Shown one piece after another: positions 1,751 to 2,225 of a stretch of DNA of 64,000 bases. This DNA is from Robertkochia flava (GTDB taxonomy: Bacteria; Bacteroidota; Bacteroidia; Flavobacteriales; Flavobacteriaceae). The stretch is from assembly GCF_020166515.1 (NCBI RefSeq), contig NZ_JAINZT010000002.1:248001-312000 (forward strand), written 5' to 3'. Position 1 is the first letter of the stretch. Every line of letters begins with the position of its first letter. The position numbers and the translations under genes were made by a program. Under the pieces are notes generated by a model. It made no database searches. It saw nothing but the letters and a program-made list of their open reading frames with translations, and was not told the DNA's origin.

Positions 1751-2225
1751 GGCATTTTCACCTGGGTTAACTCGCTGCGCTCGTTGGGCCGGACCGAGCG
1801 TGAAGAAAACAGCCGGTGGCTGTTTTTAGCGAAGGGGCCAGCCGGCGCGAGGGGAGGTGAAAATGCAAACCCGCTCCTGCTATCAAATAAATATCGTATT
1901 GGCTCCCCGCCCTGGTCAGGGAGGGGTGAACCCGGCTAGTGCCGGGGACGGGGTGGGTGGTAATATTCCCACCTGGGTTAGCTCCCTTTGGTCGCTGGGC
2001 CAGGGGACCGAGCGTGAAGCAAAGTGCCGGTGGCACTTTGTAGCGATGGGGCCAGCCGGCGCGAGGGGAGGTGAAAATGCAAACCCGCTCCTGCTATCAA
2101 ATACTTATTGAATTGGCTCCCCGCCCTGGTCAGGGAGGGTTGGCACCGGCTAGTGCCGGGGACGGGGTGGGTGGTAATATTCCCACCTGGGTTAGCTCCC
2201 TTTGGTCGCTGGGCCAGGGGTTCCC
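1751..2225. repeat. GC-rich tandem repeat, about 2.2 units of 211-214 bp, with covarying hairpins
   Basis: Units begin at about 1761, 1972 and 2186 with CCTGGGTTA. The spacing is 211 then 214 bp, neither a multiple of three, so the array is not a protein repeat. The third copy is truncated after about 40 bp and jumps to the TGAAAATGCAAACCC segment seen inside the complete units. The array is far richer in G+C than its flanks. Two palindromes differ in sequence between units yet keep pairing. Arms AAAACAGCC and GGCTGTTTT (1806-1826) become CAAAGTGCC and GGCACTTTG (2020-2040). The 17-nt element at 1769-1785 becomes a differently paired one at 1980-1996. Each unit also holds constant hairpins (CCCTG/CAGGG, CCGGC/GCCGG, GGTGGG/CCCACC). 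Origin and function are unknown. Confidence 0.85.

Follow-up and report, generated by a model that had tools for sequence, protein, structure and literature searches.

A dispersed palindromic repeat of Bacteroidota with a constant frame and a variable apex hairpin, found in an array behind a tRNA-Met gene of Robertkochia flava

We analyzed a stretch of 64,000 nucleotides from Robertkochia flava, referred to here as the window, and found that a tandem array in it contains two copies of a palindrome, element A, whose relatives are dispersed in the genus and in Bacteroidota. We consider it probable that element A, a dispersed palindromic repeat made of a constant frame and an apex hairpin of free sequence, is a mobile DNA element of the non-autonomous kind. 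Its spread is something we infer, because no partner gene recurs beside the copies.

The array behind the tRNA-Met gene

The array was detected with TRF as a single tandem repeat at positions 1759-2220, with a period of 214, 2.2 copies, and 90% matches; from start to start, the spacing was 211 and 214 for element B and 214 for element A. Next to it, on the minus strand, there is a tRNA-Met (cat) gene at 2362-2436 (ARAGORN; Rfam tRNA at 2363-2436), whose 3' end is directed toward the array and whose terminator-like hairpin, called by the consensus scan only, is located at 2323-2352 of the same strand. The remaining features are given on the plus strand. Each of the three units begins with a remodelled copy of the tRNA-Met 3' end, at 1759-1790, 1970-2006, and 2184-2220, and these contain element B at 1769-1785, 1980-1996, and 2194-2210, respectively. 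Element A lies behind element B in units 1 and 2, at 1791-1854 and 2005-2068, and is absent in unit 3. Its boundaries were taken from the conservation profile of 182 copies, and a covariance model matched both places (G000:C6:249789-249856 and G000:C6:250003-250070, where G000 is the genome of the window). The variable apex hairpin was placed at 1806-1826 in unit 1, by direct reading and a DNA fold on both strands, and at 2020-2040 in unit 2, by direct reading and a DNA fold. Both units also carry a C-type palindromic repeat, at 1901-1960 and 2115-2174, identified by matches elsewhere in the genome and by the list of C frames.

The tRNA origin of element B was not visible in the MAFFT alignment, and it was the locus of a second Robertkochia genome, G004, that showed it. 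There, the unit behind the orthologous tRNA-Met gene is identical over 35 bases, up to CACCTGGG, to the 3' flank of the real tRNA; a version of element B is found in place of the T-loop, and the T-stem re-closes with CCAGGGG, all compared by eye. Because of this comparison, made for unit 1 with G004/L289, for unit 2 with the G004 locus, and for unit 3 with that locus along with direct reading, element B is a remodelled duplicate of the 3' end of the neighboring tRNA-Met, and the array is a duplication of the tRNA 3' end and terminator, with element A and palindrome C nested inside. Tandem units behind a tRNA that start with the tRNA 3' end are known from E. coli tyrT, and the window units also start in this way; they differ from the tyrT-type tRNA-linked repeats in having a replaced T-loop and other palindromes nested within them.

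The two versions of element B at 1769-1785 and 1980-1996, 17 nt each, were as given in a preliminary description of this DNA, made from the sequence. The AAC/GTT or AGC/GCT pairs were retained in all five copies compared by eye (those starting at 1769, 1980, and 2194, one from L220, and one from G004/L289), and one inner pair was broken in two of the five, suggesting that the covariation case for element B is weaker than that for element A. Orthologous tRNA-Met loci exist both with and without element A: in G002 one unit has it and one lacks it, the G004 unit lacks it, and the G003 locus contains a decayed element A plus one element B with no A. No array was observed in the stretch of G001 that was read. 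Other tandem arrays were found right behind tRNA genes of G000, L014-L017 (C11, around 302.6-303.1 kb) and L006-L007 (C9, around 527 kb), and their units each contain terminator-like and B- or C-like pieces.

A family of dispersed copies

When the array was used in BLAST searches, a 63-bp stretch around element A was the main repeat in many sites of the genus. A covariance model built from an alignment of 30 copies detected 12 copies in G000, none in G001, 8 in G002, 116 in G003, and 21 in G004, i.e., the five Robertkochia genomes. Searches of the family (80 genomes) and of a sample of the phylum (118 genomes) were run with stricter filters, at which weak matches are lost; they gave matches in 32 and 5 genomes, respectively, G000 being counted both times, and 55 copies in G025. 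The element is sharply bounded, with a length of about 66 bp: over 182 copies, conservation goes up about 3 bases before GGRCC and down 13 bases after GCCAG. The frame consensus is GGRCCGAGCGT..TAGCGANGGRGCCAG, and the architecture is that of an A-tract, a stem, and a T-tract.

Public genomes were also scanned with the frame only, CGAGCGT and TAGCGANGGRGCCAG being separated by 18 to 36 unconstrained bases and the hairpin left free. At least 120 distinct matches were obtained, including one on a viral contig (L192), the single match of this kind, and it showed no hairpin. Among the matches listed, 79 of 80 loci were from Bacteroidota (Flavobacteriia, Bacteroidales, and Cytophagales by name), and a hairpin of at least 7 pairs was present in 116 of 120, against 2% of shuffled gaps. 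This is the behavior of a cassette, a variable hairpin in a constant frame, as had been proposed from the window, and the suggestion of a REP-like dispersed repeat family was confirmed by the copies across the genus and Bacteroidota. At the search sensitivity used, no carriage of element A by plasmids or phages was found. As in dispersed non-autonomous palindromic repeats in general, there are many dispersed copies with shared ends and no gene of their own. In G025, a replication-strand bias was considered but set aside, the count being 32 of 55 copies, by eye and with the origin assumed at base 1. In 18 of the 20 stretches of this genome inspected by eye (the exceptions being L211 and L212), element A was inside a longer repeated unit of about 190 bp with conserved ends.

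Pairing within element A and the readings it supports

The apex of element A is AAAACAGCC-GGT-GGCTGTTTT at 1806-1826 and CAAAGTGCC-GGT-GGCACTTTG at 2020-2040, and direct reading agreed with what had been described, including the GGT loop, the constant flanks, and the double change at three of nine hairpin pairs between units 1 and 2. Taken alone, a copy has no unusual stability: folded as DNA or RNA, it gave z values from -0.6 to -1.7 relative to dinucleotide-shuffled sequences; therefore, the case for element A rests on comparison. The sets used for the analysis of conservation, covariation, direct repeats, related sites, flanks, and stop codons were limited to copies that matched a fuzzy pattern of the frame and had 7 or more net pairs, and the inner-stem pairing values are conditional on this filter, while the count of 116 of 120 is unfiltered. 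The conservation profile, the 142-copy covariation, and the end-repeat, flank-pairing, and left-end counts were made on loci from outside G025.

Among the matches listed, 95 distinct fixed-length copies from the frame scan passed the hairpin filter, and 846 of their 855 inner-stem cells were paired; the best of 500 shuffles reached 71.5%, and slid partners 33-56%. Double changes numbered 247 in this set, and the 9-nt arms were of 36 different sequences. Uncompensated stem changes were looked for in these other copies and were rare, as only 9 of 855 inner cells were unpaired and 4 of the 120 frame-only matches listed had no 7-pair hairpin. That structure is kept while sequence changes was also observed in a set of 142 distinct copies with the most frequent gap length, one shared by 145 of 172 copies, and within a single genome: in 57 distinct copies of G003, aligned by fitting to the structure of the covariance model, 96.3% of cells were paired, and 128 were double-changed; shuffles gave 31.8 on average, and none of the 500 reached the observed number.

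The kinds of pairs were then informative. A stem kept for RNA pairing is expected to show G-U far above A-C. In the 95-copy set there were 842 Watson-Crick, 4 G-T, 4 A-C, and 5 other cells, and in the 142-copy set, 1256, 6, 7, and 9, respectively. The acceptor stems of 67 tRNA genes from the same DNA, in which pairs were picked for maximum Watson-Crick plus G-T and G-T was thus favored, gave 403 Watson-Crick, 60 G-T, 1 A-C, and 5 other of 469 cells. Since G-T was as rare as A-C, unlike in the tRNA control, the inner stem is in all likelihood kept as a DNA palindrome, with both strands treated alike and no RNA-type wobble. The preliminary description had taken compensatory change as a sign of selection on structure, and for the inner stem this is too strong, because template switching can create or repair such stems with double changes in one event (PMC8794818). 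The outer-frame pairs show 0 double changes in the 95-copy set, in which the frame is fixed by the pattern, and their covariation rests on the 142-copy set, with 30 double-changed cells. There, Watson-Crick swaps were found at 11-50 (C-G, A-T, G-C, or T-A), at 7-55 (G-C or C-G), and also at 14-46, and non-canonical covariation at 12.48 (G.A or A.C) and 9.52 (G.A, A.G, or C-G). As template switching cannot produce non-canonical covariation, this favors recognition of one folded strand, which would be ssDNA or RNA.

A structured RNA was among the earlier suggestions. Such a family, whether a 3' UTR element or a small RNA under selection for the way the RNA folds (Flavo-1 has been proposed to be one), is a reading that we regard as unlikely. 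Covarying stems, a criterion of such families, are present and strong, and pair 14-46 was G-T in 18 of 57 G003 copies, so a role of one transcribed strand keeps some place in the discussion. In addition, 54 of 83 cross-phylum copies lay after a stop codon on the same strand (p 0.008, median 45 nt, with ORFs called mechanically), and in four genomes (L116, L180, L227, and L232) element A was directly 3' of a TPP aptamer-like match, all four matches scoring under the Rfam gathering score; the hairpin might serve there as an expression platform. Nevertheless, the near absence of inner-stem wobble speaks against an RNA fold, and no Rfam match to element A was found. The minimum-energy RNA fold of the plus strand of unit 1 lacked the hairpin, which was formed in unit 2 and both minus strands. 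In G003, 22 of 37 copies followed a stop codon, which was not significant, and there was no orientation bias; because of this, the bias of the cross-phylum copies may be accounted for by retention. Finally, some copies are in coding sequence: two are in frame within tyrosine recombinases that still match PF00589, and five (L093, L123, and L161) are within ORFs with RHS-core sequence by eye, where the core model scored L123 above and L093 below the cut-off.

The same preference for the region behind stop codons, together with the layout of A-tract, stem, and T-tract and the free stem sequence, could be read as a bidirectional transcription terminator cassette, for which any G+C-rich stem between A and T tracts would be enough. 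This is rather improbable to us, since a constant frame with non-canonical covariation would be superfluous for termination, the stem has no wobble, copies occur inside open reading frames, and the consensus scan did not list element A as a terminator-like site.

Candidate partner genes were also considered. In passages of PMC6006769, Bacteroidetes subclass 2.6 Y1 genes are flanked by atypical structures, and element A could be the REP partner of such a Y1/RAYT transposase; these genes do occur in Bacteroidota, and size and dispersal are REP-like. However, Y1 transposase was absent from G000 and G025, it was present in 14 of 32 genomes with element A and 18 of 48 without (counted by hand), and the element A model had no match in the 50 loci searched around some of the Y1 matches. 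With no association across genomes or loci, this partner was rejected, and we find it quite improbable. Movement with a DUF559 gene, whose C-type flanking repeats often contain element A, is the least probable of all and was also rejected for lack of association over 80 genomes: element A copies do occur inside C hairpins, C repeats flank a DUF559 gene of G000, and in G065 such a gene lies between element A copies, but DUF559 was found in 17 of 32 genomes with element A and 23 of 48 without (by hand), and none was found in G025 with its 55 copies. No neighbor gene family was present in more than four element A loci. As a separate observation, direct repeats often flank stand-alone DUF559 genes, and in 7 of 23 loci a repeat of 16 bp or more is shared by the two flanks (L235, L044, L353, L358, L360, L361, L362, and L366 were noted), and the gene of G000 (L235, G000:C1:48800-52200) has C-type palindromes on both sides.

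Sites, spread, and comparison with known systems

Related sites were inspected by eye in 30 pairs, and in 24 the flanks were found with no element A between them; the other six were five comparisons of a copy with itself or a sister copy and one TPP site that was likewise filled. For at least 13 of the 24 A-less sites, the place of element A is in a loop or arm of some other palindrome, namely a C-type hairpin (9 cases), a CGTC-like repeat, the loop of a Flavo-1 element, the T-arm of a tRNA, or one further palindrome. Several A-less sites have a few other bases in place of element A, which is not what a clean insertion would show. At the left end, an abutting hairpin was found in 22.0% of 214 copies when the first two G are counted and in 15.4% when they are not, and shifted positions gave 8.4-11.7%. 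Pairing from flank to flank was in excess in a minority only, 9 of 220 against 1.0 (20-nt flanks, -18 kcal/mol). A fixed-length target-site duplication, as in a MITE, was not found: the ends carried direct repeats of 9-20 bp, variable in length, in only 8 of 174 copies; flanking direct repeats were nonetheless in excess, with 79 8-mers against 4.1.

Returning to the mobile palindromic DNA repeat, this reading is built on the dispersal and sharp ends of the copies, copy numbers that differ widely between Robertkochia genomes, related sites lacking element A, an excess of copies within or beside other hairpins, and an inner stem that stays paired with no wobble. We propose that one strand of the constant frame can fold so that a short stem with G.A pairs forms the base and the apex hairpin of free sequence stands on top. 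This folded single strand, most likely ssDNA during replication, may be recognized by some protein, or alternatively, copying could take place by template switching between hairpins; new copies would enter other palindromes at a loop or 3' arm. The apex hairpin would have no sequence-specific role, its perfect pairing presumably being kept at the DNA level by quasi-palindrome correction and selection. In the window, element A and C repeats would have colonized the tandem copies of the tRNA-Met 3' end and terminator.

Other frames showed a similar habit. With patterns that were picked after examples had been seen, end stems were found in 19 of 29 copies of frame C (12 arms; 68 vs 18% in chimera controls), 26 of 34 copies of the CGTC-like frame D (25 arms; 77 vs 13%), and 8 of 12 copies of the Flavo-1 frame (6 arms; 67 vs 29%), and the same test on frame B gave 2 of 11. 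Frame D is CGTCTTCGCGAG..GTGGCGATCTCC in L183, L213, and L325-L344 (Robertkochia), and nearly every copy has its own apex hairpin. Matches to Flavo-1 (RF01705) share loci with element A (L121:127-260, L077, L101, L153, L157, L158, and L180), and in L121 an element A copy is inside the Flavo-1 loop. The constant frame with variable apex common to frames C, D, and Flavo-1 hints at a general class. More tentatively, nested palindromic frames (A, C, D, and Flavo-1) might form one general class in Bacteroidota, with apices that are exchangeable; the frames would spread and swap apices by hairpin-targeted DNA copying, and covariation in such families, including that of Flavo-1, would then represent upkeep of DNA palindromes and not RNA function; we see this as possible, with the odds against it.

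Covariation is often read as proof of a functional RNA, and element A covaries very strongly with no wobble, pointing to upkeep at the DNA level; its copies are also a clean test set for template switching. As element A occurs in remodelled tRNA 3' ends, beside TPP aptamer-like sequences, and in frame in genes, its spread can alter both regulation and coding.

No description of the element A family was found in the open-licence PMC literature. Rickettsia palindromic elements are palindromes that are also found in frame inside protein genes, and element A is like them in having in-frame copies in genes, a likeness by description and not by sequence comparison. Flavo-1 has been proposed as a structured RNA of Bacteroidetes (passages of PMC2864571 and PMC9723704), and its matches in F. 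psychrophilum are described in part of PMC9723704 as having no strand preference relative to transcripts. It resembles element A in its Bacteroidetes-wide frame with a variable apex stem; nonetheless, the element A frame is different, and the Flavo-1 model had no match to the window element A at E up to 5. The CGTC-tagged palindromic repeats, also present in Bacteroidetes, are described in sections of PMC3733652 as short (20-40) and dispersed, with stems that vary within a family and no dedicated transposase known. Element A shares with them these traits of short, dispersed palindromes with variable stems, for which those sections know no dedicated transposase, and differs in having no CGTC (TGTC, CCTC) end tag in the position consensus, a greater length (about 66 bp compared with 20-40), and a constant frame outside the variable stem. 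Similarly, the GTAG REPs with RAYT transposases, which are dispersed hairpins in intergenic DNA according to parts of PMC3733652 and PMC6006769, are comparable in their dispersed hairpins, but the frame consensus of element A shows no GTAG or GTGG tag at the hairpin foot, and unlike a RAYT REPtron, it had no Y1 gene in G000 or beside it in the loci tested. Collectively, element A is best read as a mobile, non-autonomous palindrome of REP-like type, whose frame is new and whose apex varies, and not as one of the known Rfam RNAs.
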